Shown piece by piece: positions 15,121-36,858 of a stretch of 64,000 nt of DNA. Below the pieces are notes generated by a model. The model was given only the letters and a program-made list of their open reading frames with translations, was not told the origin of the DNA and searched no databases. The position numbers and the translations under genes are program-made. This stretch comes from Streptomyces sp. MMBL 11-1 (GTDB lineage Bacteria; Actinomycetota; Actinomycetes; Streptomycetales; Streptomycetaceae): the NCBI RefSeq assembly GCF_028622875.1, contig NZ_CP117709.1:7505001-7569000 (forward strand), written 5' to 3'. Position 1 is the first letter of the stretch. Each line of letters starts with the position of its first letter.

Positions 15121-15132
15121 ACTCGTGGTGGG

Positions 15133-16515: not shown

Positions 16516-16543
16516 GGCGATACCTCCTTTCTAGGTAAAGGGG

Positions 16544-17230: not shown

Positions 17231-17538
17231 CAGCGGACCTGCGTTCCCAACGCGCTGAAGAAGGCAACGATCCCATTCGCCCCTCCGAGCAAGAGGGCCG
17301 CTCCGGAGCTGACCAGCACGCCCTTCTTCCCGGATGCCTCCGCCTGGTGTCCACCACTGTGATGGCCCCAGGCCCAGACACCCGCGCTGACGGCGAGCGC
17401 GCCGACGATGGCCACGAGGCCGAAGAGGTTGATGGAGCCCATCACCTGCTTGAGGACGGACAGGCCGGGAAGCCCGCCCTCGTTCGGCTTGATGCCGGGG
17501 TCGTAGGCGAGCTGGATGACCTTGTCGGCCAAGTACAT
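17230..17538 (-). CDS. Small two-helix membrane protein (DUF6112-like)
   Basis: 102 residues; ATG at 17538 with GGAG six bases upstream. Two hydrophobic helices (INLFGLVAIVGALAVSAGVW and GVLVSSGAALLLGGANGIVA) flank a basic loop, a pilin-like (VirB2) or DUF6112-type layout common in Streptomyces conjugation clusters. It has no classical signal-peptide cleavage site that I can point to. Its position directly after the cell-wall hydrolase gene and before the VirB8-like gene supports a structural part of the channel. Confidence 0.65.
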   Translation of the reverse strand: MYLADKVIQLAYDPGIKPNEGGLPGLSVLKQVMGSINLFGLVAIVGALAVSAGVWAWGHHSGGHQAEASGKKGVLVSSGAALLLGGANGIVAFFSALGTQVR

Positions 17539-17629
17539 AGCGAACTCCAGTTCGATTGAGTGCACGCCGAAGCCCGAGAGGTGAAGCGGCGACGCGAGAG
17601 GAGGAGAAGAGGTGAGGGGAGAGGCAGGG

Positions 17630-18763: not shown

Positions 18764-19342
18764 CGCGGCCGCCGGTCAGCAGCGGGGCAAGGCTCGTCGT
18801 ACGACGTGGGCGTGGAGGGGTGTGGGCGTATCAGGGCATGCTGCATCGCAGCGGCTCCTCGTGTTCGTAGGAGGCGCGGTGCTGACTTCTCGTGCAAAGC
18901 CGCCAGCACCGCGCCGATGTGCGTCCGCCTCCCAGGGTGGGCCCGGGTCAAGGAGTTGGTAGCTCCCGGATCCCGGTTTCCGGTCAAGCGCGGCAGCCGG
19001 CCGCGCTCGTAATCTCAGGCGGTACACCTGGCCTCCTGACGGCGGGTGGAACGAGGGAAACGTGCTGCCGCGGGGTGCTCGATAGGACGAGCAACACGGA
19101 TAAGCACAGGTCAGCAGGGGTGAAGTGAGGCTTCGTCCCGGTGACACGGCGAGACAGTAGACCGGGAATCCGGTCGCACCAAACGACTTCCGGACCCGGG
19201 GCCACGGAACGGCACACCTCGTTGGGTCCGGCCGGAGATCACGGCTAACCTCCGGCACAACCCCGCCCGAGAAGAACGCTGTTGAGCGCAGCGCAGCGCG
19301 GAGCGGTATCGGCCCTGCTATGCCCTGAAAGAGGCCCTCCAC
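18764..19342. other. Gene-free region between divergent blocks
   Basis: 579 bases between the hydrolase start (minus) and the methyltransferase start (plus). I see no convincing gene. It should hold the promoter of the conjugation operon. GGCGAGACAGT-AG-ACCGGGAA at 19148-19168 reappears nearly unchanged at 23640-23660, and CGGTCAAGCG occurs upstream of both (18981 and 23616), so the region may be a recombination boundary. Confidence 0.5.
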
Positions 19343-21346: not shown

Positions 21347-23443
21347 TCAGCTGCGCCCCTTGTCGGCCCATACCGCGACCACCGACGGACGTGGGATGGA
21401 TCCCGGTCCGTCGGGCCAGATCGAGGCGGGCTTCTCCGCCGTGGCGCCGTCGGCTTCGCCGGGGTGCTGGGCGGCGACGAGGATGCGGTCTTCGGTGATG
21501 ATCGGTCCGCAGGTCTCCGCGGCTTTGGGGACGGTGAGGAACTGTTTGACGTAGCCGCGGTGCAGGCCCTTGACGGGGACGACGAATAGGCCGTCGTTGG
21601 AGCCGAGTGCGTTGCCGTCGGTGGCGAGCCACAAGTTGCCGTGCTCGTCGAAGGCGATGTTGTCCGGGCAGGAGATCGGGCTGACGTCGGACTTGTCGTA
21701 GCCGGCGAAGTACGTCGACGGGTCTGCCGGGTCGCCGCAGACCAGCATGAGCTGCCAGCGGAACGATGTCGCCCCGGCGTCGGAATGGCGTTCGTCCAGT
21801 TCCAGGATGTGTCCGTGCTTGTTCCCGGTGCGGGGGTTGGCCTCGTTGGGGCTGGCCTTGCCCGCCTTGCCTCGGTCGGAGTTGTTGGTGAGTGCGACGT
21901 AGAGTCGGCCCGTACGCGGGTGCGGCTCCACGTCTTCGGGGCGGTCCATCTTGGTGGCGCCCGCCTTGTCGGCGGCAAGGCGGGTGAAAACGTAGACCTC
22001 TTCCGCTGTCATGCCGGGAACGAAGGAACGGCTGCCCGTGGCGAGAGCGATCCACGCTCCGCCGCCGTCGAAGGCTCCGTCCTCGGGAAGCTTGCCCGTG
22101 CCGTCGATCTCGGCCGCCGGAGAGTCCCCACTGAACTTGGCGACGTACAACGTCCCCTCGTCGAGGAGCCGCATGTTGTGCTCACGCGCCGAGCGGCTGG
22201 TGCCTTTCTTGACCCGCTCCGTGGAGACGAACTTGTAGAGGTAGTCGAAGCGCTCGTCGTCACCCATATAGAGGGCGACCCGGCCGTCGCTGGTCAGGCG
22301 GGGCTCGGCGGCCTCGTGCTTGAACCGGCCAAGGGCCGTGCGCTTGCGCGGGACGGAATCAGGGTCGTACGGATCGATCTCGACGATCCAGCCGTGCCGG
22401 TTGGCCTCGTTCGGTTCCTTTCCGAGGTCGAAGCGGTCGTCGAAGCGTTCCCACTTGCGCTGGCTGGCCCCGGTCGGCAGGCCGTAGCGGGCCAGGCGCT
22501 GCTTGGCGGTCGGGTCGGTGACGGAGGCGGCGTTGGCGAAGTACTGGTTGAAGTTCTCCTCGCCGGACAGGACGGTGCCCCACGGTGTGACGCCGCCGCC
22601 GCAGTTGTTCAGCGTGCCGAGGACGGTGCGGCCGGTGGGGTCGGCGCTGGTCTTGAGGAGGTTGCTGCCGGCCGCCGGGCCGGTGAGCTCGAACGGAGTG
22701 GTGGCGGTGATGCGGCGGTTGAGGCTGTCGCCGGGGATCGGCCACAGTCGGCCGGAGCGTCGATCGGTGCGGACGCTGAGGACGGTCAGCCCGTGGGCGG
22801 CCCAAGCGATCTCGACCTGCTCGCGGGTCGGGTTGGCGGGGTCGTAGCCGAAGAACATGATCTCTTCGTTGGTGTACTCGTGGTTGACCACGAGCAGCTG
22901 GTCGCCGTGGCAGTGCCCCGGGAGGTCGAGCAGTGCCATGTAGTCGCAGTTGTAGCCGAACTGGCGAGACTGGGCCGCGACGCTCTGACGGCGGGCGTCG
23001 AAGCGGGGCGCACCCCGCAGTACGGGGTCGCCCCAGCGGATGACGACCTGCTGTGCGTAGCCGGCGGGGACGGTCACGGCGTCGGCGGTGTTCGGCGGAA
23101 CTGCCTCGAAGCGCAGACCGCGAGGCAGGCGGCCCGCACCTCGGTCCGGACCGAGGTGGGTGGAGGGAGCGGCGGCCGCGCTGGACGCCGCCGCGGGTGT
23201 GGCGACCGCTGCCCCGGCGGCTGCGGCGAGGGCGAGGACCGCGCCGCTCTTGAGCGCTCCGCGGCGGGACACCTGGTGGACGATGTCGCCGAAGTAGGTG
23301 TTGAGCGAGCGGTTCGGAGCGTCGTGGGAGCAGGCGTCGCCGCACCGGTAGCGACAGGTAAGAGCCGAGCGCGCTGTGTTGTGGCTGGGCAGCAAAGGCA
23401 GGTCCGCTGAGCGGTCTGTGCGGCTGTCGGGCTGTTCGAGCAC
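21347..23443 (-). CDS. phoX: PhoX-type secreted alkaline phosphatase (DUF839)
   Basis: 698 residues. I chose GTG 23443 because a perfect GGAGG lies five bases upstream. An N-terminal segment (TCRYRCGDACSH...YFGDIV) precedes a twin-arginine export signal SRRGALKSG and an Ala-rich hydrophobic stretch. The body has the conserved PhoX features GWIVEIDP, KHEAAEP, YMGDDERFDYLYKFVS, RPEDVEPHP and SCPDNIAFDEHGNLW. PhoX enzymes are Ca/Fe-dependent phosphomonoesterases that free phosphate from organic esters outside the cell. It is divergent from pstSCAB and shares the 400-base promoter region with PHO-box-like repeats, so phosphate-starvation control by PhoP is likely. Confidence 0.9.
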   Translation of the reverse strand: MLEQPDSRTDRSADLPLLPSHNTARSALTCRYRCGDACSHDAPNRSLNTYFGDIVHQVSRRGALKSGAVLALAAAAGAAVATPAAASSAAAAPSTHLGPDRGAGRLPRGLRFEAVPPNTADAVTVPAGYAQQVVIRWGDPVLRGAPRFDARRQSVAAQSRQFGYNCDYMALLDLPGHCHGDQLLVVNHEYTNEEIMFFGYDPANPTREQVEIAWAAHGLTVLSVRTDRRSGRLWPIPGDSLNRRITATTPFELTGPAAGSNLLKTSADPTGRTVLGTLNNCGGGVTPWGTVLSGEENFNQYFANAASVTDPTAKQRLARYGLPTGASQRKWERFDDRFDLGKEPNEANRHGWIVEIDPYDPDSVPRKRTALGRFKHEAAEPRLTSDGRVALYMGDDERFDYLYKFVSTERVKKGTSRSAREHNMRLLDEGTLYVAKFSGDSPAAEIDGTGKLPEDGAFDGGGAWIALATGSRSFVPGMTAEEVYVFTRLAADKAGATKMDRPEDVEPHPRTGRLYVALTNNSDRGKAGKASPNEANPRTGNKHGHILELDERHSDAGATSFRWQLMLVCGDPADPSTYFAGYDKSDVSPISCPDNIAFDEHGNLWLATDGNALGSNDGLFVVPVKGLHRGYVKQFLTVPKAAETCGPIITEDRILVAAQHPGEADGATAEKPASIWPDGPGSIPRPSVVAVWADKGRS

Positions 23444-23711
23444 GAGGTCCTCCACGCGATGGGATACGGAAGGCGGCCTCATATAGGCGGCCATCGATCA
23501 ATGACGCTAGGCGCAGCGCGGGCACCGAGGGGCGTCCGGAAGGTGAACGGGAGCCCAACTCTGCAGGGAAGGCGGAGCCGGAGGGGCCCTTGCGCCACGC
23601 CCGTGGCGCGCGTTTCGGTCAAGCGGCCGGGGCGACGAAGGCGAGACAGTGACCGGGAAATGGGCCCCGCACGTAAACATCATCATCCGTCTATAGAGAT
23701 GACTAGCTATC

Positions 23712-23755
23712 GTTCATACCCGATGGGCCCCTCGTACACCCCGTGTTCATATAGC
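23712..23755 (+). promoter_or_regulatory. Four tandem 11-bp PHO-box-like repeats
   Basis: GTTCATACCCG, ATGGGCCCCTC, GTACACCCCGT and GTTCATATAGC follow one another at exact 11-bp spacing. Streptomyces PhoP binds direct repeats of this length with a GTTCACC-like core; units 1, 3 and 4 fit best. The array lies 89-132 bases upstream of the pstS start. A single GTTCACC on the minus strand (23542-23548) faces phoX. Confidence 0.7.
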
Positions 23756-23843
23756 CAGACTTCGATGAAGGAGTCCGAACGGGGTGCGCTGCGCACCTGA
23801 TGCAGACAGCCGGGTGTACCGGCAGACACGAGGGTCGAGAGTC

Positions 23844-24818
23844 GTGAACATTTCCACTTCGTTGCGCCGGGCCAAGGCTCCTTTGGCTCTGACGGCTGCT
23901 GTGATGCTGGCCGCGAGTGCGTGCGGCGGCGCCGATGCCGGCTCCGGTGGTGAGGGTGGCGACAAGCTGTCCGGGACCGTCAAGGTGGACGGGTCGAGCA
24001 CGGTGGCCCCGCTGTCCACCGTGGCCGCCCAGCTCTTCCAGCAGGCGAACCCGGGCGTGAAGGTCACGGTCGGCACCTCCGGCACCGGCGGCGGCTTCGA
24101 GAAGTTCTGCGCCGGCGAGACCGACATCTCCAACGCCTCCCGGGAGATCAAGGACGAGGAGAAGGCGCTCTGCGAGAAGAAGGGCGTGAAGTTCGAGGAG
24201 TTCTCGGTCGCCAACGACGGCCTGTCGGTCGTGGTGAGCAAGGACAACGACTTCGTCGAGTGCCTGACTGTCGAGCAGCTCAAGAAGATCTGGGAGCCCG
24301 GCTCCAAGGTGAACAACTGGAACCAGGTCGACCCGAAGTTCCCGAACCAGAAGATGGAGCTGTTCGGCGCGGGCACCGACTCGGGCACCTTCGACTACTT
24401 CACCGACGCCATCAACGGTGAGGAGGGCGCCTCGCGCACCGACTACAACCCGAGCGAGGACGACAACGTCACCGTCCGCGGCGTGTCCGGCTCCAAGGGC
24501 GGCATCGGCTACTTCGGCCTGTCCTACTTCGAGGAGAACAAGGACAAGCTGAAGGCCCTCAAGATCGACGGCGGCAAGGGCTGCGTCGCCCCCGGCATCG
24601 AGACGGTACAGAACGGCACCTACACGCCGCTCGGACGGCAGCTGTTCATCTACCCGAAGGCGTCCTCCCTGGAGAAGCCCGAGGCCGAGGCGTTCGTCGA
24701 GTACTACGTCGAGAACAGTGCCGAGATCGCCGAGAAGGCGCAGTTCGTGCCGCTCAACGCCGAGCAGCAGAAGGAGCTGGAGAAGGACCTCGCGACTCTG
24801 CGGGAGCAGCACTCCTGA
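23844..24818 (+). CDS. pstS: Phosphate ABC transporter substrate-binding lipoprotein
   Basis: 324 residues from GTG 23844. A lipoprotein signal ends in LAASAC (Cys near residue 27), anchoring the protein outside the membrane. The phosphate-binding fold is clear: VDGSSTVAPLS, GTSGTGGGFEKFC, FGAGTDSGTFDYF and SGSKGGIGYFG carry the phosphate-contacting Ser/Thr/Gly loops. First gene of a pstSCAB operon under the PHO-box array. It groups with arsenic genes rather than with the housekeeping pst locus expected elsewhere in a Streptomyces genome. Confidence 0.93.
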   Translation: MNISTSLRRAKAPLALTAAVMLAASACGGADAGSGGEGGDKLSGTVKVDGSSTVAPLSTVAAQLFQQANPGVKVTVGTSGTGGGFEKFCAGETDISNASREIKDEEKALCEKKGVKFEEFSVANDGLSVVVSKDNDFVECLTVEQLKKIWEPGSKVNNWNQVDPKFPNQKMELFGAGTDSGTFDYFTDAINGEEGASRTDYNPSEDDNVTVRGVSGSKGGIGYFGLSYFEENKDKLKALKIDGGKGCVAPGIETVQNGTYTPLGRQLFIYPKASSLEKPEAEAFVEYYVENSAEIAEKAQFVPLNAEQQKELEKDLATLREQHS

Positions 24819-25768
24819 TGAGTTCCACCCTCTCTTCACGGCGGGCCGCTTCAGGAAGCCCCGGCTTCCTGAAGCGGTCCCAGCCGCGCTACGGCGAGAA
24901 GGTCATCAAGGTCCTCCTGGTGGCCGCCTCCATGGTCTCGGTGCTGACCACGATCGGCATCGTCATCGCCCTGATCCCCCCGGCCGGCGAGTTCTTCTCC
25001 AAGGTCGACTTCGGTGAGTTCCTCACCGGAACGAACTGGGCGCCCCTGTTCAAGCCCGCCTCCTTCGGCGTTCTGCCGCTGGTCGGCGGCACCCTGATGG
25101 TCACGTTTATCGCTCTGCTGGTGGCTGTTCCGCTGGGCCTGGGTGCGGCGGTGTACCTGAGCGAGTACGCGAACAAGCGCGTGCGGAAGATCTTCAAGCC
25201 GCTGCTTGAGGTTCTCGCGGGTATCCCCACGGTCGTGTACGGCTTCTTTGCGCTGAAGGCCATCACCCCGGTCCTGCAGAGCATCTGGCCCGCCGGTGAC
25301 GGGCCGCAGATCTTCAACGCGCTCGCCGCGGGCTTCGTCATGGGCATCATGATCATCCCGACGATCGCGTCGCTCGCCGAGGACTCGATGAGCGCGGTGC
25401 CCCGTGCGCTGCGCGACGGCGCGTTCGCCCTCGGCTCCTCCCGCATGCAGGTCTCCACCCGCGTGGTGTTCCCCGCCGCGCTGTCCGGCATCGTCGCCGC
25501 CGTCGTCCTCGGTATCTCCCGGGCGCTGGGCGAGACGATGATCGTGGCCATCGCGGCAGGCGGACAGCCGAACCTGTCCTTCAACCCGCTCGAAGGCATG
25601 CAGACGATGACCGCGTTCATCGCCGCAGCCGGCATCGGCGACCTGCCCACCGGCTCGACCGGCTACCAGACCATCTTCGCCGTGGGTGCCCTGCTGTTCG
25701 TGATGACGCTGGTGATGAACCTGCTGAGCATCCGTCTGGTGCGCAAGTACCGCGAGGTGTACGAATGA
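24818..25768 (+). CDS. pstC: Phosphate ABC transporter permease PstC
   Basis: 316 residues, six membrane segments. The EAA-type loop reads [28 protein letters not shown] followed by [11 protein letters not shown], the signature of PstC. The ATG overlaps the pstS stop (TGATG), so expression is coupled. Together with PstA it forms the phosphate channel energised by PstB. Confidence 0.93.
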
Positions 25769-26673
25769 GTTCCAAAGTCATCGACCGCGATGCAGCCCTC
25801 CACGACGACGCTCCCCGGCTCAAGGGCAAGGGGACACCCCTACGCGAGCGGTTCTTCCACCTGAGCCTGTTGCTCTCGCTCGCCGTCGCCGTCGTCTTCC
25901 TCGCCTCGCTGCTCGCCTACGTGCTCAGCGAGGGCTGGTCACGGCTGGACCCGCGGCTGTGGATGAACTTCCCCGACTACATCGACCCGACGCAGGGCGG
26001 AGCCCAGTCGGCGATCATGGGCACGGTCTGGGTCATCGGCTTCACCGCCGTCTACTGCCTCCCGACCGGCATCCTCACCGCCATCTACCTGGAGGAGTAC
26101 GCCGACCCGGACAAGTGGTGGAACCGCGCGATCGAGATCAACATCCAGAACCTGGCCGCCGTACCCTCGATCGTCTACGGCATCCTCGGCCTCGGCATCA
26201 TCTCCCGCGGCCTCGGTTTCGGACAGACCGTGCTGACCGCGTCCCTGACTCTGTCCCTGCTGGTCCTGCCGGTGGTGATCATCTCCTCCCGGGAGGCGAT
26301 CCGCGCGGTCCCGCAGTCCATCCGCCAGGCGTCGCTTGCCCTGGGGGCCACGCAGTGGCAGACCATCTGGCGCCAGGTCCTGCCCGCGGCCGTCCCCGGC
26401 ATGGCCACCGGGTCGATCCTGGCTCTGTCCCGCGCCATCGGCGAGGCGGCCCCGCTCTTGCTGCTCGGCGGTCTGACGTTCATCACGTTCAACCCAAGTG
26501 GCGTGCAGAGCCAGTTCACCGTCCTGCCGATCCAGATCTTCAACTGGATCAGCCAGTCCCGTTCGGAGTTCGTGTCGCTCGCCTCCGCCGCCATCGTGAT
26601 CCTGCTGGCGATCCTGCTGGCGATGAACTCCGTGGCGATCTGGCTCCGCAACCGCTACTCCCGCACCTGGTGA
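25765..26673 (+). CDS. pstA: Phosphate ABC transporter permease PstA
   Basis: 302 residues, six membrane segments. Conserved features include [13 protein letters not shown], the segment [18 protein letters not shown] and the ATPase-contact loop [20 protein letters not shown] followed by [15 protein letters not shown]. Its ATG overlaps the pstC stop (ATGA). It pairs with PstC in the inner membrane. Confidence 0.93.
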
Positions 26674-26744
26674 CCGCCATGACCTCCACACCCTCCGCGA
26701 CCCGACACCTCGACCCCGCCGCCGACTCTCCGCAGGAGACCGCC

Positions 26745-27593
26745 ATGACCCCTCCCTCCGACGCCACCGGCGGCACGAGGATTCCGCAGGTCGCCTTCCG
26801 CAGCGCCCCGTCGCTGGCCAGCCCCGTCTTCGAGGTCGGCAGCCTGTCCGTCTTCTACGGCGACCACGAGGCCGTACGCGACGTCAACATGACCATCGGA
26901 CACCGGCAGATCACCGCGATGATCGGCCCCTCCGGCTGCGGCAAGTCCACCGTGCTGCGCTGCTTCAACCGCATGAACGACCTCGTCCCCAGCGCCCGCG
27001 TGGCCGGCAAGGTCCACTACCACAACGAGGACCTGTACGGTCGGGACGTCGACCCGATCGAGGTCCGCCGCAGGATCGGCATGGTCTTCCAGAAGCCGAA
27101 CCCGTTCCCCAAGTCGATCTACGACAACATCGCCTACGGCCCCCGCGTCGGCGGGTTCCAGGGCAACCTGGACGACCTCGTCGAGGAGACCCTCACCCAC
27201 GCGGCCCTCTGGGACGAGGTCAAGGACAAGCTCAAGACCTCCGCGCTCGCCCTCTCCGGCGGTCAGCAGCAGCGACTGTGCATCGCCCGCACCATCGCGG
27301 TCAAGCCCGAGGTGATCCTCATGGACGAGCCCTGCTCGGCCCTCGACCCGATCGCCACCGCCAAGATCGAAGACCTCATGACGCACCTCGCCCGTGAGTT
27401 CACGATCATCGTCGTCACCCACAACATGCAGCAGGCCGCCCGCGTCTCCGACCGCACGGCCTTCTTCACCGCCGACGTCGACGACGCGGGAGTCCGCCAC
27501 GGACGCCTCGTCGAGTACGACGAGACGGAACGCATCTTCTCCAACCCCTCCGACCAGCGCACCGAGGACTACATCTCGGGCCGCTTCGGCTGA
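26745..27593 (+). CDS. pstB: Phosphate ABC transporter ATP-binding protein
   Basis: 282 residues. I chose ATG 26745 because AGGAG lies six bases upstream; an in-frame ATG at 26679 would add 22 residues. Walker [10 protein letters not shown], the PstB-typical [16 protein letters not shown], signature LSGGQQQRL and Walker [14 protein letters not shown] are all present and intact. The N-terminus has ~30 extra residues compared with typical PstB of ~255. It energises PstC/PstA. Confidence 0.92.
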
Positions 27594-27641
27594 TCCCGAA
27601 GCCAAGCTGCTCTTTGCGCCGCCACGTAAAGGAGTACCCGG

Positions 27642-28436
27642 GTGACCCCCGACGCACGACGACCACCGGAGACCACCGCACGGGTGTCTCCGGACGGCCC
27701 GGACGACAGCAGGACCCCGGCCCTGCTGATGGCCGAGCCCGACGGGGAGCTGGCTGAGCAGGCCATGGCACGCTTCTCGGCCGCCGGCGTGAGCGTGATC
27801 GCCTGCCACGACGGCGCCGAGGCCCTGCTCCAGGTCGGAGCACAGCACCCCGGCGCCGTACTGCTCGGCGCACCGCTTCCGGTGGTGAACGCTGTACAGG
27901 TCACCCGCCTGATCAACCGGCTCAGTCCCGTGCCCGTCATCGTCGGCGCCGGTCCGGACGGGACCGAGGAGGCGACCGCCGCCCTCACCGCGGGCGCCGT
28001 GGCCTTCGTGGCACGGCCCTACCGGATCGAAGAGATACTCCCGCTCCTGACGGCGGGACTCACACCGGACGACAGGACGGCCTCAACGCTGGTCGTCGGT
28101 GACATCGAGCTTGATCCGGTCGGGTTTCACGTCTACGTACGAGGACGCTCGCTCCAGTTGCCGGTACGTGAATTCATGCTGCTGCGCTACCTCATGGAGA
28201 ACGTCAACCGGCTCGTCTCCCGGCCAGAGCTGACCCAGGTCCTGTGGGGCACGAAGAGCCTGGACAGCAACACCCTCACCGTCCACGTCCGCCGCGTACG
28301 GCAACGCCTGCGGGAGGGTGCGGGAAGCTGCTGCACCATCGACGCGATCCGCGGCATGGGCTACCGCCTGGAATGCAGGCCCTCCGATTCCGTGCAGCCA
28401 CCGCTCTCCTCCTCCCGACCGGCTGCCCCGGCTTAG
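27642..28436 (+). CDS. OmpR/PhoB-family regulator with a degenerate receiver domain
   Basis: 264 residues; GTG 27642 with AGGAG seven bases upstream. Residues ~27-140 have the receiver fold, but the phosphoacceptor Asp at the end of beta-3 is replaced (AVLLGAPLPVVNAV where LLDxxLP is usual), the N-terminal acidic pair is altered (LLMAEPDG) and the conserved Lys is Arg (VARPYR). Residues ~150-250 are a winged-helix DNA-binding domain (FMLLRYLMENVNRLVSRPEL, LTVHVRRVRQRLR, IRGMGYRLE). It follows pstB by 48 bases in the same direction, so it probably belongs to the operon and works without a kinase. Likely targets are the neighbouring pst/ars genes (inference). Confidence 0.85.
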   Translation: MTPDARRPPETTARVSPDGPDDSRTPALLMAEPDGELAEQAMARFSAAGVSVIACHDGAEALLQVGAQHPGAVLLGAPLPVVNAVQVTRLINRLSPVPVIVGAGPDGTEEATAALTAGAVAFVARPYRIEEILPLLTAGLTPDDRTASTLVVGDIELDPVGFHVYVRGRSLQLPVREFMLLRYLMENVNRLVSRPELTQVLWGTKSLDSNTLTVHVRRVRQRLREGAGSCCTIDAIRGMGYRLECRPSDSVQPPLSSSRPAAPA

Positions 28437-28669
28437 CCGGCCACCCACCGTTCTCTCTCCACCTCGCCGACGTCGCCCCGCTGATGCGGCGCGTCGGCTT
28501 GGACTCCGGCCGGCGGGCTGCTTGGCGGTGCCCCGCCGGCCGGTTCACATCCTGCGAACTCCGAGGTGGCGATTCGCTTGGGTCGTTCGGTCGAGCGCTA
28601 ACCGGAGGGCGCCCCGGGCACTGGCGAAGCGCCGGTTTCCCGCCAGGCAGGCCCGTCGCATGCGGCAGC

Positions 28670-29341
28670 TCAAGCAGAGGACGGGGACGGCGCGTTCAGC
28701 TCTGCGAACAAGCGGTCGATGCGTGCCTGCAGACTGTTCCGCACGGCCCGTGCGCTTTCGATGTCGAGGCCCCGGAGGTCCGGCAGGTCCCAGTTGAAAT
28801 AGCGGCGGCCAGGTCGTACGGGACAGGCGTCGGCGCAGCCGAGCGTGATCACCAGGTCCGCCGCGTCGACGACCTCGATGGTGAGCGGCTTGGGAAAGTC
28901 CTCTCCGGTGTCGAGCCCCTGCTCCGCCAGTAGCTGGACCACGACGGGCGAGATGCCAGCTGCGGGGCCCGATCCTGCGGTCATGACCAGGACCGAGCCG
29001 AGCGCGCGCCGGCGCAGCAGCGCGCCGGCCAGCTGAGAGCGCCCGGCGTTCTCCGTGCAGACGAAGAGCACCGCAGGCGGGGATTCACCCGACAGCCCCC
29101 GGGCGCGGGCGAGGCCGCGCAGCCGCTCGTCGGCGAACCGCTCCACGAGGACCGGAAGGTGCTGGACGGCACGAGCCCGGTCGGCGAGGAGAGTGGCGCA
29201 CTCGTCCACGTAGCGGGCAACGGTGGCCTGCGAGAAGGCATGGCGGTGACGCAGGGCGAGCCGGGCGGTGATCCGCGCGAGTACCGCGCTGGCGCTCCGT
29301 AGGGGCGGGGTGGCCCGGCCGAGTGGTGGCTGCTCATCCAT
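28670..29341 (-). CDS. arsC: Arsenate reductase-like protein with N-terminal helical domain
   Basis: 223 residues from ATG 29341. Residues ~1-90 form an alpha-helical domain (VARYVDECATLLADRARAV...HLPVLVERFADERL) found fused to low-molecular-weight-phosphatase-like reductases in actinobacteria. Residues ~95-223 have the P-loop CTENAGRSQLAGALL, then ITLGCADACPV with the two Cys used in thioredoxin-coupled arsenate reduction. It reduces arsenate to arsenite or acts as a tyrosine phosphatase; the ars context favours the first. Divergent from an arsR gene with an operator-like inverted repeat between them. Confidence 0.8.
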   Translation of the reverse strand: MDEQPPLGRATPPLRSASAVLARITARLALRHRHAFSQATVARYVDECATLLADRARAVQHLPVLVERFADERLRGLARARGLSGESPPAVLFVCTENAGRSQLAGALLRRRALGSVLVMTAGSGPAAGISPVVVQLLAEQGLDTGEDFPKPLTIEVVDAADLVITLGCADACPVRPGRRYFNWDLPDLRGLDIESARAVRNSLQARIDRLFAELNAPSPSSA

Positions 29342-29373
29342 GACTGCGCCCCTTCCCGAAGCCGACCTCCAAC

Positions 29374-29391
29374 TATAGGTACACATCTATA
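29374..29391. promoter_or_regulatory. Candidate ArsR operator
   Basis: TATAG and CTATA form an inverted repeat with 8 bases between them, in the 152-base divergent gap between the arsC-like gene and arsR (29494). AT-rich dyads with this spacing in such gaps are typical ArsR sites. A second AATAGATG occurs at the arsR start itself. Confidence 0.5.
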
Positions 29392-29493
29392 TCTGAGTGG
29401 ATCGATACGGAAGAGGGTGAACGATAAGTGAATTCAAAGTGGCAACCGTCACAGGCGCCCTGGGAGCGGCCTTCGGGCCCATATGGTGAATAG

Positions 29494-29865
29494 ATGTCCA
29501 TCACTGCCTACGAGGCGACGAAGACGGTCGTGGACGATGAACCGGCCACATGCGTGTCACAGCTGTCCTGCCTGCTCATCGACCGCGAAGAGGCCGAGCG
29601 CATGGCCGGGGCCCTGAAGGCCATTGCCGACCCCACACGACTGCAGATACTGCGCCTGATCGAACGCTCTCCCGCCCGCGAGGCGTGCGTGTGCGACCTG
29701 ACCGACTGCCTCGGCCTGCGCCAGCCCACCGTGAGCCACCATCTGAAGGTCATGACGGACGCCGGGATCCTCACGCGGGAGCGGCGCGGAACGTGGGCCT
29801 GGTTCTCCGTCGACCCCGAAGGGCTTCGTCGGATCCGGGACATTCTGGAGCCGACGACCGGCTGA
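29494..29865 (+). CDS. arsR: ArsR-family metalloid-responsive repressor
   Basis: 123 residues. Winged helix-turn-helix: GALKAIADPTRLQILRLIE, then the metal-binding loop EACVCDLTDCLGL with the CVC pair and a further Cys, then QPTVSHHLKVMTDAGIL. Two more Cys lie near the N-terminus (residues ~20 and 26). The CVCDL motif at the recognition helix is the As(III) site of classical ArsR proteins. It probably controls itself and the divergent arsC-like gene. Confidence 0.88.
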   Translation: MSITAYEATKTVVDDEPATCVSQLSCLLIDREEAERMAGALKAIADPTRLQILRLIERSPAREACVCDLTDCLGLRQPTVSHHLKVMTDAGILTRERRGTWAWFSVDPEGLRRIRDILEPTTG

Positions 29866-29919
29866 CAGCCACCCGCCCCGGCCGCCTCGCAGTGTCGGTT
29901 CCCTACGGCCGGCCGCAAA

Positions 29920-31038
29920 TCAGGACAGCGTGCTCACCACGTGCCGCACCCGCGAGGCCACCTTCTCCGGCAGTGGGGCGTAGTGGATGCGCGCCAGCCC
30001 TGCCTGAACCTCCTCACTCGCGGTGTAGGTCAGGAAGGACTTCAGCGCGGGCAGCACGCCGGCCGGAGTGCCATCGGCGCACACGATTTCGTAGGTGACC
30101 AGCACGATCGGATACGCGCCGGGAGCCCTGGTGCGGTAATCGAACTCCAACGTCAAGTCCTGGCCACTGCCGGCGACCTTGGCGGCGGCGATGCCGGCGG
30201 ACGCGCTCTGCGCGGAGACCGCGACCGGGTCCGGGGCGCCCGTGTCCAGCTTCACGGTGGGCACGCCCTTGGCCTTGGCGAAGGACAGCTCGAAGTAGCC
30301 GATCGAGCCGTTCTGGCTGCTCACGGTCGAGACGACTCCGTCGGAACCGGGCGCTGCATGGCCGCCCCTGGCCTGCCATGCCTTCACCTTCTCGTACGGC
30401 CACTCCTCCAGTGCCGCATCCGCCAGGTAGGCGTTGAAGTTCTGCGTGGTGCCCGAGTTGTCGGAGCGGTGTACGGCGCTGATCTCGATCTCGGGTAGCT
30501 GTGCGCCGGGGTTGAGGCGCTGGATCTCGGGGTCGTTCCACATCGTGATCCGTGAGTCGAAGATCCGAGCGACGGTCGACGCGTCGAGGACGAGGCTGTC
30601 CACGCCGTCGACGTTGTAGCCGATGGCGACGGGGCCGGCGACCATCGGCAGGTCGATCGCCCTACTCCCGGGGCACGCGCGGCGGGAGAACTCGACATCC
30701 TCTTCCGACAGCGGGGTGTCGCTGCCGCCGAAATGCGTGGCTCCGCGAAGGAACTGGGCCACTCCACCGCCGGAGCCGATGGGGCTGTAGCGCAACTGCA
30801 CCCCGGGGCAAGCGCTCTGGTATTCCTGCAGCCAGTGCTTCATCGCGTTCTGCTGGGCGGTCGAGCCCGAGCCCGCCACCTTGCCCTCGTCGGCGCAGGC
30901 GATGTGGCTCGGCCGTGAGGGGGACGGGGCGGCTTCACCCCCGCCGCCCCGTCCGCAGGCCGAAAGGAGCAAGGTGCCAGCTGCCACTGCCGCGGCGCCT
31001 TTCAGTGGAATGCGTCGATTCGACCGTCGATGATGCAC
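29920..31038 (-). CDS. pstS: Second PstS-like phosphate-binding lipoprotein
   Basis: 372 residues from GTG 31038 (AAGGAAA upstream). Lipoprotein signal AAVAAGTLLLSAC. Phosphate-binding motifs AGSGSTAQQNAM, SPIGSGGGVAQF, HFGGSDTPLS, RSDNSGTTQNFNAYL and SQNGSIGYFELS are present. It has no transport genes of its own, so it probably serves the pstCAB permease encoded about 5 kb upstream. It differs strongly in sequence from the first PstS. Two PstS proteins of different affinity beside ars genes would fit discrimination of phosphate against arsenate (inference). Confidence 0.85.
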   Translation of the reverse strand: MHHRRSNRRIPLKGAAAVAAGTLLLSACGRGGGGEAAPSPSRPSHIACADEGKVAGSGSTAQQNAMKHWLQEYQSACPGVQLRYSPIGSGGGVAQFLRGATHFGGSDTPLSEEDVEFSRRACPGSRAIDLPMVAGPVAIGYNVDGVDSLVLDASTVARIFDSRITMWNDPEIQRLNPGAQLPEIEISAVHRSDNSGTTQNFNAYLADAALEEWPYEKVKAWQARGGHAAPGSDGVVSTVSSQNGSIGYFELSFAKAKGVPTVKLDTGAPDPVAVSAQSASAGIAAAKVAGSGQDLTLEFDYRTRAPGAYPIVLVTYEIVCADGTPAGVLPALKSFLTYTASEEVQAGLARIHYAPLPEKVASRVRHVVSTLS

Positions 31039-31296
31039 CAGTGTTTCCTTCCAGATGGCCAGCCAACTGGATAGATGCTCGCCGATGTAAACGCCATGGA
31101 GGCGACGCACCGACGAACATCGGCTGACGGAACACGACTGGATGGATGACCTGCGCGTGACATACGCGCGCCGCGACGAAGGCCCCGCGCAGCGCCTCGA
31201 CTCGGCAGGACGCAGCATAAGGTCAGCCTCGCGCCCTTCATCACCGCGAGGGAGACTCTCCCGAGGATCGCGGTCGGACTCGTTCCGCCGGATCGC

Positions 31297-32280
31297 TCAG
31301 ACGGCCGCCGGCGTCTTTTCGGGCTCCGCGACCGCTTTGGTGTCGGTGAGGGCCGCGAGGTAGCGTTCGGCGTCCAGGGCTGCCGCGCAGCCGGAGCCCG
31401 CGGCGGTGATCGCCTGGCGGTAGGTGTGGTCGACCACGTCTCCCGCACCGAACACGCCGGGGATGTTCGTGCGGGTCGAGGGGGCCTCGACCTTCAGATA
31501 GCCCTCGTCGTCCAAGTCCAGCTGGCCCGCAAAGAGCTCCGTGCGCGGGTCGTGGCCGATCGCGACGAACAGGCCGGTGGCATCGAGGTCGCGCGTCCGG
31601 CCACTGAACGTGTCGCGCAGGACGAGACCGGACAGCGCGCCGCCCTCCTCCTTGATCTCCGCGATCTCACTGTCGAAAGCGAAGGAGATCTTGTCGTCGG
31701 CAAACGCGCGGCTCTGCATGACCTGGGAGGCCCGAAGCGCGCTCCGGCGGTGGACGACCGTGACGGAACGGGCGAACCGGGTGAGGAAGGTGGCCTCCTC
31801 CATCGCGGTGTCGCCGCCGCCGACGACTACGATGTCGCGGTCCCGGAAGAAGAACCCGTCACAGGTCGCGCAGTAGGAGACACCGCGGCCCGACAGTTCG
31901 TCCTCGCGCTCCAGGTTCAGCTTGCGGTGCTGCGATCCGGTGGTCACGATCACGGCGCGGGCCCGGTGAACTGCTCCGCTGCTGTCGGTGACCGTCTTGA
32001 TGTCGCCCGTGAGGTCGACGGCGACGATGTCGTCCGGGACCAGTTCGGCTCCGAACCGCTCCGCCTGGGCCCGCATGTTGTCCATGAGGTCCGGGCCGAC
32101 GATGCCCTCGCGGAATCCGGGGAAGTTCTCGACCTCGGTGGTGTTCATCAGCGCGCCGCCCGCGGTCACGGAGCCTTCGAAGACCAGCGGCTGGAGGTCG
32201 GCCCGCGCCGTGTAGAGCGCAGCCGTGTATCCGGCGGGCCCGGAGCCGATGACGATGACGTTGCGGATGTCGGCGCTCAT
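31297..32280 (-). CDS. trxB: Thioredoxin reductase of the ars operon
   Basis: 327 residues. FAD-binding [17 protein letters not shown], redox-active CATC (Cys137 and Cys140), NADPH-binding [12 protein letters not shown] and the C-terminal [21 protein letters not shown] are intact. Its ATG overlaps the arsC stop (ATGA). In Streptomyces ars loci this gene (arsT) supplies reduced thioredoxin for arsenate reductase, which agrees with the Trx-type ArsC encoded just upstream. No thioredoxin gene is in the window. Confidence 0.92.
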
Positions 32281-32690
32281 GACGCGACCTCGGGTGCGAT
32301 CTCCTTGATGAGGCCCTCGACCATCACCTTGATCTCGTCGCGGATCGGGCGCACGGCGGCCACGCCCTGGCCGGCCGGGTCTTCGAGCTTCCAGTCCAGG
32401 TAGCGCTTGCCGGGGAAGACGGGGCAGGTGTCGCCGCAGCCCATGGTGATGCAGACGTCGGACTCCTTGACGGCGTCCACGGTCAGGATCTTCGGGGTCT
32501 CGGCGGAGATGTCGATACCGACCTCGGCCATCGCCTCGACGGCAGCGGGGTTTACCGCGTCGCCGGGGTTCGATCCCGCAGAGCGGACCTCGACGCGGTC
32601 CCCTGCCAGGTGGGTCAGCCAGGCAGCGGCCATCTGGGAACGGCCCGCGTTGTGAACGCAGACGAACAGGACGGAGGGCTTTTCGGCCAT
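32277..32690 (-). CDS. arsC: Thioredoxin-coupled arsenate reductase
   Basis: 137 residues from ATG 32690. P-loop [16 protein letters not shown] with catalytic Cys11, further Cys in [16 protein letters not shown] for the disulfide relay, and the usual [12 protein letters not shown] loop. It converts arsenate to arsenite using thioredoxin. It forms a two-gene operon with trxB and is divergent from arsR/acr3 across a 94-base promoter region with an operator dyad. Confidence 0.93.
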
Positions 32691-32751: not shown

Positions 32752-32769
32752 CATCAGCATCCACTGATG
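32752..32769. promoter_or_regulatory. Operator dyad CATCAG-N6-CTGATG
   Basis: A perfect inverted repeat in the short divergent gap between arsC and arsR, with ATCAG-type half sites repeated nearby (32736-32741 and 32776-32781). Likely bound by the ArsR encoded at 32785. Confidence 0.65.
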
Positions 32770-32784: not shown

Positions 32785-33093
32785 ATGATGACTTCAGTCG
32801 ACACTGACGTGATTCGGGTTCTGGGTGATCCGCTGCGCATGCAGGTGGTCACCCTGCTGGCCCGGGAGACGCTCTGTATGTCGCACCTGGTCGAGGAGAC
32901 CGGTGCCAAGCAGACGAATCTGTCCAACCACATGAAGGTCCTGCGCGAGGCGGGACTGGTGGAGACCGAGCCGTGCGGCAGGTTCACCTACTTCAAGCTG
33001 CGCCCCGAGGTCCTGGCCTCGGTGTCCGCACAGTTCGCCGAGCTCGCCGAATCCGCCCGTACCGCGATCGAGAACAAGAGGGCCTGCCCGTGA
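32785..33093 (+). CDS. arsR: ArsR-family repressor of the arsC/acr3 operons
   Basis: 102 residues. VIRVLGDPLRMQVVTLLARETLCMSHLVEETG and QTNLSNHMKVLREAGLVETEPCGRF give a winged-helix ArsR protein with a single Cys in the first helix region, one near the beta-hairpin (EPCGR) and one at the C-terminus (RACP). This arrangement differs from the CVC type at 29494, indicating a separately evolved metalloid site. Overlaps the acr3 start (GTGA). Confidence 0.88.
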   Translation: MMTSVDTDVIRVLGDPLRMQVVTLLARETLCMSHLVEETGAKQTNLSNHMKVLREAGLVETEPCGRFTYFKLRPEVLASVSAQFAELAESARTAIENKRACP

Positions 33094-34202
33094 CCTCCAC
33101 CGAACCGACCACCCGGGCCCCGCAGGCCGGCGGTGACGACTCGATCGTCAAGAAGCTCTCCACCCTCGACCGCTACCTCGCGGTGTGGATCCTGCTCGCC
33201 ATGGCCGTCGGCCTGAGCCTGGGCCGCCTCATCCCGGGCATGAACGACGCGCTCGCGAAGATCGAGGTCGGCGGGATCTCCCTGCCGATCGCCATCGGGC
33301 TGCTGGTCATGATGTACCCGGTGCTGGCCAAGGTCCGCTACGACCGGCTCGACACGGTCACCGGCGACCGCAAGCTGATGGTCTCCTCGCTCGTCATCAA
33401 CTGGATCATCGGCCCCGCGGTCATGTTCGCCCTGGCCTGGATCTTCCTGCCGGACCTGCCCGAATACCGCACCGGCCTGATCATCGTGGGCCTCGCCCGC
33501 TGCATCGCCATGGTCATCATCTGGAACGACCTCGCCTGCGGCGACCGCGAGGCCGCCGCCGTCCTTGTCGCCCTCAACTCCGTCTTCCAGGTCCTGGTCT
33601 TCGGCGTGCTGGGCTGGTTCTACCTCGACCTGCTGCCCCAGTGGCTCGGCCTCGGTGACGGACAGGGACTGGACGTCCCCGTCTGGCACATCGCCCTGAA
33701 CGTCGTCGTCTTCCTCGGAGTGCCCCTGCTCGCCGGGTTCCTCACCCGCCGCATCGGCGAGAAGAAGATGGGCCGCGAATCCTACGAGGAGAGGTTCCTG
33801 CCGAAGATCGGCCCCTGGGCTCTCTACGGCCTGCTGTTCACGATCATCATCCTGTTCGCCCTGCAGGGAAAGACGATCACCTCGCAGCCGCTGGACGTCG
33901 TACGCATCGCCCTGCCGCTTCTCGTCTACTTCGCGATCATGTTCTTCGGGAGCTTCCTCCTCGGGAAGAGCCTCGGACTCGCTTACGACCGCACGAGCAC
34001 TCTCGCCTTCACCGCCGCCGGCAACAACTTCGAGCTCGCCATCGCGGTCGCCATCGCGACGTTCGGCGTCACCTCCGGCCAGGCGCTGTCGGGCGTCGTC
34101 GGTCCGCTGATCGAGGTACCCGTCCTCATCGGCCTCGTCTACGTCGCGCTCGCCTGGCGAAAGAAGTTCGCCCCCGACGCCATCACCACACCCGGAAGGT
34201 AG
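33090..34202 (+). CDS. acr3: ACR3-family arsenite efflux permease
   Basis: 370 residues, about ten membrane segments. ARCIAMVIIWNDLACGD contains the essential Cys of ACR3 transporters, and FTAAGNNFELAIAVAIATFG is the conserved C-terminal signature. GTG 33090 overlaps the arsR stop, so the pump is translated with its regulator. It exports arsenite produced by the ArsC proteins. Confidence 0.95.
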   Translation: MTSTEPTTRAPQAGGDDSIVKKLSTLDRYLAVWILLAMAVGLSLGRLIPGMNDALAKIEVGGISLPIAIGLLVMMYPVLAKVRYDRLDTVTGDRKLMVSSLVINWIIGPAVMFALAWIFLPDLPEYRTGLIIVGLARCIAMVIIWNDLACGDREAAAVLVALNSVFQVLVFGVLGWFYLDLLPQWLGLGDGQGLDVPVWHIALNVVVFLGVPLLAGFLTRRIGEKKMGRESYEERFLPKIGPWALYGLLFTIIILFALQGKTITSQPLDVVRIALPLLVYFAIMFFGSFLLGKSLGLAYDRTSTLAFTAAGNNFELAIAVAIATFGVTSGQALSGVVGPLIEVPVLIGLVYVALAWRKKFAPDAITTPGR

Positions 34203-34207: not shown

Positions 34208-34429
34208 ATGCACTGTCTGGAATGCCACACTGAAGGAAGGGACAGTCACGCCGTCGGCGTATGCCACAACTGTGGAGCCGCCGTCTGCGCCCACCACGCC
34301 CGCATGGCGACTCGCAGCGTCCGCCACGGCAGTCTCATCGGCACCCCCGGAGAACACCAGGAGCGCACCCTGCTGTGCCCGGTCTGCGCCGAAGCCCACG
34401 CCCCGGCCGCAGCGGCAAACACCCGGTGA
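34208..34429 (+). CDS. DUF2180-like small zinc-ribbon protein
   Basis: 73 residues. MHCLECHTEG, GVCHNCGAAVCAHHA and LLCPVCAEAH supply three CxxC pairs and several His, consistent with two zinc or metalloid sites. This family regularly accompanies actinobacterial ars genes; its role is unknown, possibly a metal or arsenite chaperone. It starts 5 bases after acr3 and overlaps arsO, so it is co-translated with both. Confidence 0.8.
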   Translation: MHCLECHTEGRDSHAVGVCHNCGAAVCAHHARMATRSVRHGSLIGTPGEHQERTLLCPVCAEAHAPAAAANTR

Positions 34430-35484
34430 CCAGCACCGATGTCGTGGTGATCGGCGGCGGGCAGGCAGGGCTCGCCGCCGGCTACCACCTGCGCCGCCAG
34501 AACCTCGACTTCGTGATCCTCGACGCCCAGACCACGGCGGGGGGCGCCTGGCAGCACACCTGGGACTCCCTGCACCTGTTCTCCCCGGCAGCCTTCTCCT
34601 CGCTGCCGGGGCGGCTCATGCCCGCCCAGCCCGGCCAGGAATACCCCGACGCCGCCCACGTGATCGACTATCTGAGCGACTACGAGCAGCGCTACAGCCT
34701 TCCCCTTCAACGCCCGGTCATGGTCCGCGCGGTCCACCGCGACGGGACACGGCTGCGGGTGGACACGGACGCAGGGCACTGGTCGGCGCGGGCGATCGTC
34801 TCGGCGACCGGCACCTGGTGGCGCCCCTTCCTGCCCACCGTCCCCGGCCAGGAGACGTTCACCGGGCGTCAGCTGCACACCACCGGCTACCGGCGGCCCT
34901 CCGACTTCGCCGGGCAGCACGTCATCGTCGTCGGCGGTGGCAACTCCGGCGCACAGATCGCCGCCGACCTCACCACCCACAAGGACGTGGGCCTGACCTG
35001 GGTCACCCAGCGCCCGCCCCGGTTCCTCGCGGACGACATCGACGGCCGCGCCCTGTTCGACGCCGCGACCGCTCGGCGCCGCGCCCTGGACGAAGGGCTC
35101 ACCGACACCGGCGGCGTCGCCTCACTGGGCGACATCGTCGCCGTCCCGCCGGTCCGCGCAGCACGGGACGCCGGCCTGCTCAAAGCCCAGCCGATGTTCA
35201 CCGCCCTCACCGAGGACGGTGTGCAGTGGGCGGACGGAACACGTGCCCAGGCTGCAACGGTGATCTGGTGCACCGGCTTCCGCCCCGCCCTCTCCCACCT
35301 CGCCCCGCTGGGCCTGCGGAGCCGACGCGGCGACATCGCCACCCACGGAACCCGGGCCGCCGACGAACCGCGCCTGCACCTTCTCGGCTACGGCGACTGG
35401 ACCGGACCCGCCTCGGCCACACTGATCGGCGTGGGCCGACCGGCCCGCGCAGCCGTCCGCGAGATCACCGCTCTGTTGGGCTGA
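34426..35484 (+). CDS. arsO: ArsO-type flavin-dependent monooxygenase
   Basis: 352 residues from GTG 34426, overlapping the DUF2180 stop (GTGA). FAD site VVIGGGQAGLAAGYHLRR, NADPH site VIVVGGGNSGAQIA and the C-terminal ATVIWCTGFRP (ATG-motif region) define a single-component flavoprotein monooxygenase like those in Streptomyces arsenic islands. Its substrate is unproven; oxidation of arsenite or a thiol/organic arsenical is likely. It ends 8 bases before the convergent gene at 35493. Confidence 0.8.
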   Translation: MTSTDVVVIGGGQAGLAAGYHLRRQNLDFVILDAQTTAGGAWQHTWDSLHLFSPAAFSSLPGRLMPAQPGQEYPDAAHVIDYLSDYEQRYSLPLQRPVMVRAVHRDGTRLRVDTDAGHWSARAIVSATGTWWRPFLPTVPGQETFTGRQLHTTGYRRPSDFAGQHVIVVGGGNSGAQIAADLTTHKDVGLTWVTQRPPRFLADDIDGRALFDAATARRRALDEGLTDTGGVASLGDIVAVPPVRAARDAGLLKAQPMFTALTEDGVQWADGTRAQAATVIWCTGFRPALSHLAPLGLRSRRGDIATHGTRAADEPRLHLLGYGDWTGPASATLIGVGRPARAAVREITALLG

Positions 35485-36366: not shown

Positions 36367-36771
36367 TTATGTCGGTGATGGCTTGAGGATCGTGCAGATG
36401 TCGTCTGCGCCGCAGGCGGCGGGGTCGGCGGTTGCTGCGCGGGCGGCGAGGCCGCGAAGTGCTGCGCGGGTGGCGGCGAGCTCGGCCATACGTCGGTCGA
36501 TGTCGTCCAGGTGTTCGTGGATGAGGTCGGTGACGTGGGTGCACGGTGCTTGACCGTCGTCGCGCAGGGCGAGGATCGAGCGGATCTCGGCGAGGGTGAG
36601 GCCGGCCCGCTGGGCGTCCCGGATGAACGTGAGTCGGTTCACCGTGTGATCGGGGTAGTCCCGGTAGCCGCCCGAGGTGCGGGGCGGTGCGGGCAGCAGC
36701 CCGCTGTCCTCGTAGAAGCGGAGGGTCTTGGTCGTCAGCCCTGTGTGGGCGGCGAGCTCGCCGATGCGCAT
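36367..36771 (-). CDS. merR: MerR-family mercury-responsive regulator
   Basis: 134 residues. MRIGELAAHTGLTTKTLRFYEDSGLL is the MerR DNA-binding head. A long coiled helix follows, with Cys at APCTHV (residue ~77) and a C-terminal AACGADDIC loop, giving the three Cys expected for Hg(II) binding. Divergent from merB, sharing an 87-base gap with a MerR-type promoter. Confidence 0.85.
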   Translation of the reverse strand: MRIGELAAHTGLTTKTLRFYEDSGLLPAPPRTSGGYRDYPDHTVNRLTFIRDAQRAGLTLAEIRSILALRDDGQAPCTHVTDLIHEHLDDIDRRMAELAATRAALRGLAARAATADPAACGADDICTILKPSPT

Positions 36772-36787
36772 GTCTCCAGGCTAGCCC

Positions 36788-36819: not shown

Positions 36820-36858
36820 CGGGCCAGACGACGGACGAGGTCCCGGAAGGACAGACGG

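Follow-up and report, generated by a model that had tools for sequence, protein, structure and literature searches.

Why would an arsenic-resistance island carry phosphate-acquisition genes of its own? Arsenate enters cells as a phosphate mimic, and the question is raised by a locus of Streptomyces sp. MMBL 11-1 in which the genes for an alkaline phosphatase (phoX), a phosphate transporter (pstSCAB), a degenerate PhoP/RegX3-like regulator and a second phosphate-binding protein (pstS2) are interleaved with genes for an arsenate reductase (arsC2) and a repressor of the ArsR family (arsR2). The locus lies within the 64-kb window analysed here (C1:7505001-7569000 of the 8.5-Mb genome G000), and positions are those of the window unless preceded by C1 or by the name of another locus. 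The original prediction, which ended at 31038, saw in it a second phosphate system under PHO-box control that might defend the cell by out-competing arsenate. We report that the promoters of this module carry, beside PHO-type repeats, a second kind of site that accompanies arsR2 from locus to locus. The reading we favour, and consider reasonably likely from the sequences, is that the phosphate module, its arsenate reductase included, is repressed by ArsR2 and activated by PhoP or the orphan regulator, while another repressor, ArsR1, runs the classical ars genes.

A second Pst system beside a classical arsenic core

Each of the open frames predicted in the locus (phoX, pstSCAB, the atypical regulator, arsC2, arsR2 and the second pstS) was found at the place claimed for it (Table 1). 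The PstSCAB set is complete, with S and B above curated cut-offs and two BPD_transp_1 permeases. The genome's housekeeping pst lies elsewhere, with a pstB at C1:3442861 (62% identity to the island PstB) and a pstS at C1:3439579, which makes the island pst a second system. The classical arsenic genes, trxR-arsC1 and arsR1-acr3-arsO, lie beyond 31038. They make up a core of the arsRBOCT type: ArsR, efflux pump, ArsO, ArsC and thioredoxin reductase occur together, as judged by gene content.

Putative ArsR2-type operators

The promoters of phoX, arsC2/arsR2 and pstS2 contain a 16-bp near-palindrome, ATAG-N8-C[T/G]AT, and that of pstS1 contains two copies. These sites are probably ArsR2 operators, to judge from the sequence patterns described below. 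They would form a layer of control that the original prediction overlooked; its PHO-box control of Pst stands in so far as PHO-type repeats are present at these promoters. Alignment of the intergenic regions (14 sequences for phoX-pstS1, 17 for arsC2-arsR2) gave a promoter footprint, in which blocks are kept in sequence and position amid divergent flanks; among the parts of the alignment listed, the arsC2-arsR2 block is absent from locus L049 and the phoX block from locus L045. The spacing of the two pstS1 operators is 56 bp in the 11 loci where both copies match the pattern.

A position matrix was built from 47 sites of 14 other loci, the training pattern having been picked by eye. The five top-scoring sites of the window all lie at island promoters (24.0 to 15.2 bits, Table 1), and the next matches (12.3 and 10.3 bits) fall at the promoter of an arsR4/flavoprotein pair (39766, 39818). 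A strict version of the pattern, formulated once the window sites were known, has 4 matches in the 8.5-Mb genome, of which 3 lie in the island; a reversed-pattern control gave 0. The match at C1:1933210 was inspected and judged unrelated.

Across loci, the sites follow arsR2. Of the 18 loci with arsR2, 17 have a pstS1-promoter operator that reaches 10 bits, against 0 of the 14 without it (Fisher 3e-8), the 32 scorable loci excluding L053, L058 and L071, whose pstS1 could not be scored, and including four distant arsR2-less ones (L073-L076, PstS1 54-55%). The sole miss among the 18 is L049, where the pstS1 match begins inside the gene; a site, ATAGGCTGGATTCGAT, can be seen directly beyond the part that was scanned. 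In a tree of PstS1, the four distant loci aside, the arsR2-less loci fall into three groups within the ars-linked part, with L100 outside it; one group stands beside L066 (95/96) and two stand in an unresolved fork. These positions call for at least two separate losses, so that a single inherited event does not account for the pattern. L056 and L057, which keep pst and the regulator and lack arsR2, have PHO pairs of 13/14 and 12/14 and no operator.

Over the 32 loci scanned with the matrix, sites of at least 14 bits are mostly at the phoX, pstS1, arsC2/arsR2 and pstS2 promoters, the remaining ones being at arsR4/flavoprotein (L046, L050, L064), a second arsR (L071), a second pstC (L051) and an unlabelled frame (L072). 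No operator match at all was obtained in L053, L056 or L057, and none in 10 housekeeping-type pst loci. In two held-out plasmid islands, those of pFRL6 and pFRL5, sites stand at phoX, at arsC2/arsR2 and, as one strong copy per island, at pstS1; pFRL6 has a further operator-type site between arsR2 and trxA. In pFRL5 (L108, 18413-20364), three strong ArsR2-type sites (19451, 19736, 19978) lie between an inorganic phosphate transporter gene and a divergent third arsR, and may therefore serve either. The inverted repeat conserved at the arsC1/arsR1 promoter, CATCAGCATCCACTGATG (32752..32769), is of another kind, and this promoter has no PHO box. Because the promoters of the phosphate genes carry sites that track arsR2, an arsenic repressor probably gates these genes.

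PHO-type repeats

PHO pairs were scored against the published consensus GTTCACC-N4-GTTCACC (PMC7244524, PMC4415409). The pair in the arsC2 promoter scores 12/14 in the window and 11-13/14 in the 13 other islands scored, a set that left the arsC2 promoters of L043, L045 and L049 outside; a distant arsC2 homolog in L092 (47%) scores 8. For comparison, the genome's own housekeeping pstS promoter has a pair of 13/14, and the arsC1 and arsR1 promoters score 8-9. Among simulated 330-nt segments a score of 11 was reached in 11/500 and of 12 in 0/500, and none of 48 other window genes scores as high as 12. Taking a Pho-regulon promoter to have at least two 11-nt direct repeats near GTTCACC, arsC2 qualifies at 12/14, pstS1 and phoX fit moderately and pstS2 weakly.

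ArsR2, ArsC2 and the orphan regulator

The nearest relative of ArsR2 in the PDB is the arsenic-responsive ArsR 6j0e. Its winged helix (HTH_5) is accompanied by cysteines C20, C26, C65, C67 and C72, which from the sequence are candidate As(III) ligands. All five are present in the 16/16 other arsC2-bearing loci, in L053 and in both plasmid islands. ArsC2 matches the full-length arsenate reductase of PDB 3t38 over residues 8-213 of 223.

The orphan regulator is related to RegX3/PhoP (PDB 2oqr). Like those response regulators it has a receiver and a winged helix, and its recognition region (DSNTLTVHVRRVRQRLR) resembles theirs (DTKTLDVHVKRLRAKIE in the genome's own PhoP candidate, L102). It differs in the receiver: the phospho-acceptor Asp is replaced by Gly, Ala or Ser in 22/22 aligned proteins of the island clade, an alignment from which the truncated copy of L071 is absent, and in 9/9 of a distant clade. 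Thus the phosphorylatable Asp expected of a two-component receiver is replaced in all 31 aligned relatives, whereas the PhoP candidate retains it. No histidine kinase gene was noticed beside the regulator gene. The protein ends in SCC...LEC (Cys216-Cys217 and Cys231 in the window). In a structural model (mean pLDDT 71), strands 217-222 and 226-231 are predicted to form a C-terminal hairpin with Cys217 and Cys231 at its open end. Cys217 is kept across the whole clade, and Cys216 is replaced by Arg in L049, L050, L053, L054 and L069. Cys231 occurs in 16/16 aligned proteins from arsC2-bearing loci and in 2/6 from loci without arsC2, being present in L069 and L072 and absent in L053, L054, L056 and L057. 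In L073-L082, a regulator relative of 38-41% identity lies beside pst genes in other species, and it too is without the phospho-acceptor Asp.

Conservation and mobility

With the regulator gene as anchor, 295 genomes of the genus were searched. The gene was found at 55% identity or more in 9/295 genomes, the own genome included (9 loci besides the own one), and a 38-41% relative in 12 further genomes. A scan of named genomes with the regulator gave 17 Streptomyces loci at 68% or more. The merged comparison set holds 22 other loci, without near-identical pairs (97% identity over 3 kb); L101, which overlaps L066, was omitted. Among the 22, pstC/pstA/pstB are present in 20, arsR2 in 20, arsC2 in 16, and trxR and arsC1 in 16; phoX is found in 13, acr3 in 11 and pstS2 in 10, some contigs ending early. 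As a control, arsC2 was used as anchor instead: it gave 7 loci at 64% or more in 6/295 genomes, the own one included, all 7 beside the regulator gene (the L071 copy being truncated) and 6 beside pst. Chance co-location of phosphate and arsenic genes was ruled out by this conserved synteny. The original prediction is borne out in so far as the arsenic island has a Pst system of PHO-box type and a phosphatase of its own, kept together as a unit across Streptomyces loci.

A search with PstS1 found a match in 21/295 genomes, and nine more loci with this type of pst were mapped. In seven (L093-L098, L100) the stretch retrieved contains no arsR2 and no regulator gene, L092 combines pst and ars genes with another arsR, and L099 has arsR2 on a contig stretch that ends early. 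Four Streptomyces linear plasmids carry the regulator at about 80%. The two plasmid islands that were opened, pFRL6 and pFRL5, contain phoX, pstSCAB, the regulator, arsC2, arsR2 and the ars core; pstS2 is not annotated in them. The plasmid copies and the recurrence across loci make the unit a mobile and recurrent one. In pFRL6 (L107, 1170-7505), genes of the TnsA, transposase, AAA and TniQ types, annotated as Tn7-like transposition proteins, directly adjoin phoX, so that the island may move by a Tn7-like element.

Proposed circuit and alternatives

The mobile arsenic determinant may be pictured as two regulons. ArsR1 would control the classical arsC-trxR and acr3-arsO genes through its own operator, and ArsR2 would control phoX, pstSCAB with the orphan regulator, arsC2/arsR2 and pstS2 through operators lying over or beside PHO-type repeats. 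Arsenate would enter through phosphate transporters (pst mutants of lactobacilli point to entry via Pst; PMC11084836) and be reduced to As(III). ArsR2 would keep the module off until As(III) formed in this way released it, and phosphate limitation would drive the module through PhoP, or through PHO-box-like binding by the orphan regulator; together these inputs would amount to an AND-type logic. The extra phosphatase, the Pst system and an arsenate reductase would then be made in one response, and arsenate leaking in with phosphate would be reduced and exported, a form of phosphate acquisition with built-in disposal that may benefit the cell under arsenate.

Several observations weigh against this reading or narrow it. 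At least one site of 15 bits or more is held by 21/200 simulated windows (0.115 such sites expected per window), with a simulated maximum of 22.3 bits; single sites are not significant alone, and the weight therefore lies in the five sites standing at these promoters. At a cut-off of 8 bits the operator is found in 17/18 loci with arsR2 and in 1/14 without (L100, 8.9 bits), and 12 of the 18 arsR2-positive loci are training loci of the matrix, the non-training loci having the operator in 5/6. At pstS1, phoX and pstS2 the PHO pairs have modest scores, for the most part 9-12/14, with 9 in the arsR-only loci L054, L069 and L099. The window holds 19 PHO pairs of at least 11/14, against 5.75 in simulation, and 11 of the 19 are inside called genes; on these counts, significance of the PHO boxes from the window alone was rejected. 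They are credited because they are conserved across loci, so that the boxes of the original prediction exist with cross-locus support and are weak within the window by itself. The L071 island has lost pstSCAB and kept the rest, and in Rhodococcus BCP1 pst is reported as not induced by arsenate (PMC6514093). Lastly, ArsR2 has two or three cysteines in four loci where no ars genes were found (L054, L069, L072, L099), as judged from tblastn maps of the fetched stretches and, in L069 and L072, from Pfam for five neighbours. The Cys-poor proteins belong to a single clade (96/93), so that one event may underlie the association of cysteines with ars genes; and since these loci keep the pst operator without arsenic genes, the coupling of ArsR and pst may not always concern arsenic.

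The out-competition that was first supposed would require an island Pst that is phosphate-selective and lets the cell exclude arsenate, and here the two binding proteins differ in kind, PstS1 passing TIGR02136 and PstS2 passing TIGR00975. The discriminating Asp of the canonical PstS is Asp56 in the E. coli numbering. In an alignment with E. coli-type PstS, the canonical motif (GGSDTPLS) is retained by PstS2. The binding protein encoded in the operon itself, PstS1, reads NASREIKDEE there, with Arg in place of the Asp. The same Arg occupies this position in 4gd5, which is of the Clostridium perfringens type. PstS-type proteins discriminate 500-4500-fold according to a review (PMC7866108, citing Elias 2012), which together with PstS2 speaks for selectivity, but the same review describes a C. 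perfringens PstS as lacking the low-barrier bond and having a higher affinity for arsenate. Moreover, in Halomonas GFAJ-1, where a pst operon lies within an arsenic island, deleting either pst operon left arsenic resistance unchanged (PMC5930303). We regard out-competition as unlikely, and defence through phosphate-over-arsenate selectivity is not supported by anything in the present analysis. The Arg of PstS1 would suit a deliberate import, in which Pst and the PHO-driven ArsC2 would take in and reduce arsenate, and As(III) would be exported against competitors. An arsenate reductase wired like the importer agrees with this idea, which gives no role to PhoX; phosphate limitation explains the wiring more simply, and deliberate import strikes us as highly improbable.

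Phosphate and arsenic genes might also merely share a mobile element without functional coupling, as the presence of the island on linear plasmids, in pFRL6 beside Tn7-like genes, and the occurrence of this pst type without ars (L093-L098, L100) would allow. Such hitch-hiking is made very unlikely by the conserved operators, which link phoX, pst, pstS2 and arsC2 to the islands that bear arsR2 and do not occur at loci lacking it. Another question is which protein binds the PHO-like repeats. Were it the phosphorylation-dead regulator of the island and not PhoP, the module would be independent of the cell's PhoR-PhoP. The kinship and recognition region of this regulator are compatible with that, as is its company: it lies beside pst in 20/22 other loci (L071 having lost pst and L053 starting at a contig end), and the 38-41% identical clade lies beside pst genes in the 12 further genomes. 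The repeats nevertheless fit the published PhoP consensus GTTCACC and the genome's own housekeeping pstS promoter as well, and we hold independence from PhoP to be possible, if on balance doubtful. A more elaborate form of the ArsR2 circuit would make it a second, arsenic-gated Pho regulon, in which an arsenic repressor captured PHO-box promoters, an arsenate reductase was recruited to the phosphate-starvation response, and the phosphorylation-dead PhoP-like protein, with cysteines at the open ends of its DNA-binding hairpin, exchanged phosphorylation for thiol sensing and became an As(III) co-sensor; taken as a whole, this is speculative and rather improbable.

Comparison with known systems

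Pst genes in arsenic islands and control of Pst by ArsR are already known in Proteobacteria. Li et al. (2013; PMC3834237) reported on 21 aio-anchored islands in which ars and pst occur together, and suggested the same benefit, out-competition; the main text of that paper contains neither Actinobacteria nor Gram-positive, and among the matches listed Streptomyces is not found in it. Their arsenic island comprises aioBA, ars and pst/phn/pho genes, and the present locus departs from it, as no arsenite oxidase was found among the 40 window proteins, part of the window's genes, that were given to Pfam. Like the islands of Agrobacterium tumefaciens 5A/GW4, Herminiimonas and Halomonas GFAJ-1, it joins ars to a second pst beside the housekeeping one; unlike them, it has a PstS1 of the TIGR02136 subfamily, includes phoX, the degenerate regulator and a second pstS, and has putative ArsR operators next to PHO-type repeats and at an arsenate reductase gene. 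A precedent for ArsR control of an island pst comes from A. tumefaciens 5A, whose ArsR1 acts as a repressor of the island pstS1/phoB1; the response there is described as phosphate-insensitive (PMC7965956).

The adjoining core resembles arsRBOCT of pHZ227 in its efflux pump, ArsO, ArsC, thioredoxin reductase and ArsR, and differs from it in that the phosphate module adds a repressor and a reductase of its own. pHZ227 is not known to carry a pst module. This arsRBOCT determinant is that of a Streptomyces linear plasmid (Wang et al. 2006, cited in PMC6514093). Compared with the Streptomyces PhoR-PhoP regulon (PHO box GTTCACC, 11-nt direct repeats), the repeats upstream of pstS1, phoX and arsC2 are alike, whereas an arsenate reductase under a PHO box with neighbouring putative arsenic-repressor sites is a departure; no report of such an arrangement was found in the literature searched. 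Among the open-licence matches listed, none describes, by its title or the start of its abstract, a Streptomyces island of this type. New here are the actinomycete form, the composite promoters with PHO repeats and putative arsenic operators on four transcription units, the PHO-boxed arsenate reductase and the phosphorylation-dead regulator. The comparison suggests a separate origin of ArsR-Pst coupling in Actinomycetota and Proteobacteria. Sequence alone predicts a defined circuit, with two operator types, PHO-type repeats and one arsenate reductase on the phosphate side, in tractable soil bacteria and linear plasmids that offer natural variants lacking arsR, arsC or pst; the part of phosphate uptake in arsenic defence is therefore directly testable.

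Features of the locus and its surroundings

Table 1. Genes and putative regulatory sites of the island (window positions)
Feature	Position	Strand	Remarks
phoX, alkaline phosphatase PhoX	21347..23494	-	PF05787 1.7e-162, 543 bits; ATG at 23494, GTG at 23455 alternative
Putative ArsR2-type operator at phoX start, ATAGGCGGCCATCGAT	23483..23498	.	19.7 bits; conserved in other islands; one of 4 strict genome sites
PHO-like direct-repeat units of phoX (GTTGGGC, GTTCACC, GGACGCC)	23531..23559	-	11-nt step
Putative upstream ArsR2-type operator of pstS1, AGAGATGACTAGCTAT	23695..23710	.	15.2 bits; imperfect in window
PHO-like units of pstS1: 23712 (GTTCATA), 23734 (GTACACC), 23745 (GTTCATA)	23712..23751	+	11-nt register
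Second putative ArsR2-type operator of pstS1, ATAGCCAGACTTCGAT	23751..23766	.	17.7 bits
pstS1, substrate-binding lipoprotein, TIGR02136 subfamily	23844..24818	+	297 bits (cut-off 206.6)
pstC, permease	24818..25768	+	PF00528; 66-99% identity in other regulator-anchored loci
pstA, permease	25765..26673	+	PF00528
pstB, ATPase	26670..27593	+	TIGR00972 388 bits (cut-off 343.2)
Degenerate PhoP/RegX3-like OmpR-type regulator without phospho-acceptor Asp	27684..28436	+	GTG at 27642 alternative
arsC2, arsenate reductase with N-terminal three-helix domain	28670..29341	-	PF21234 and PF01451
Putative ArsR2-type operator between arsC2 and arsR2, ATAGGTACACATCTAT	29375..29390	.	24.0 bits, best of the window
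PHO box of arsC2, ATTCACT-N4-GTTCACC	29416..29433	-	12/14
arsR2, ArsR/SmtB repressor, 5 cysteines	29494..29865	+	HTH_5
pstS2, second phosphate-binding protein, TIGR00975 subfamily	29920..31038	-	261 bits (cut-off 205)
Putative ArsR2-type operator of pstS2, ATAGATGCTCGCCGAT	31071..31086	.	21.8 bits; conserved
trxR/arsT, thioredoxin reductase	31297..32280	-	Pyr_redox_2
arsC1, thioredoxin-type arsenate reductase	32277..32690	-	arsRBOCT-type core
arsR1, repressor	32785..33093	+	arsRBOCT-type core
ACR3 arsenite efflux transporter	33090..34202	+	TIGR00832 446 bits
arsO, flavin monooxygenase	34426..35484	+	NF040505 562 bits (cut-off 425)

Some related loci differ in their contents. L051 has a second, canonical-type pstCAB between arsR2 and trxR (14658-17430); some 290 nt upstream of its pstC is an operator-like site of 14.4 bits. 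In L066 (13457-14245) and L071 (14323-15045), an aquaporin-like protein, recognized by eye, takes the expected place of ACR3 between arsR1 and arsO.

A scan of the window with Rfam and for tRNAs found nothing. At its left border (1-19000) are conjugative or plasmid-like genes (a TraG/VirD4-type coupling protein, a DnaB N-terminal domain, an EccE-like protein and NlpC/P60). Adjoining the arsenic core, at 36367-37836, are a MerR regulator and an alkylmercury lyase (MerB) domain, C-terminal in a longer protein. The divergent arsR4 and flavoprotein-MFS pair (39393-42519) has related but distinct near-palindromes, and the pair is also found beside several such islands. An encapsulin and a DyP-type peroxidase form a further pair at 48920-50787.

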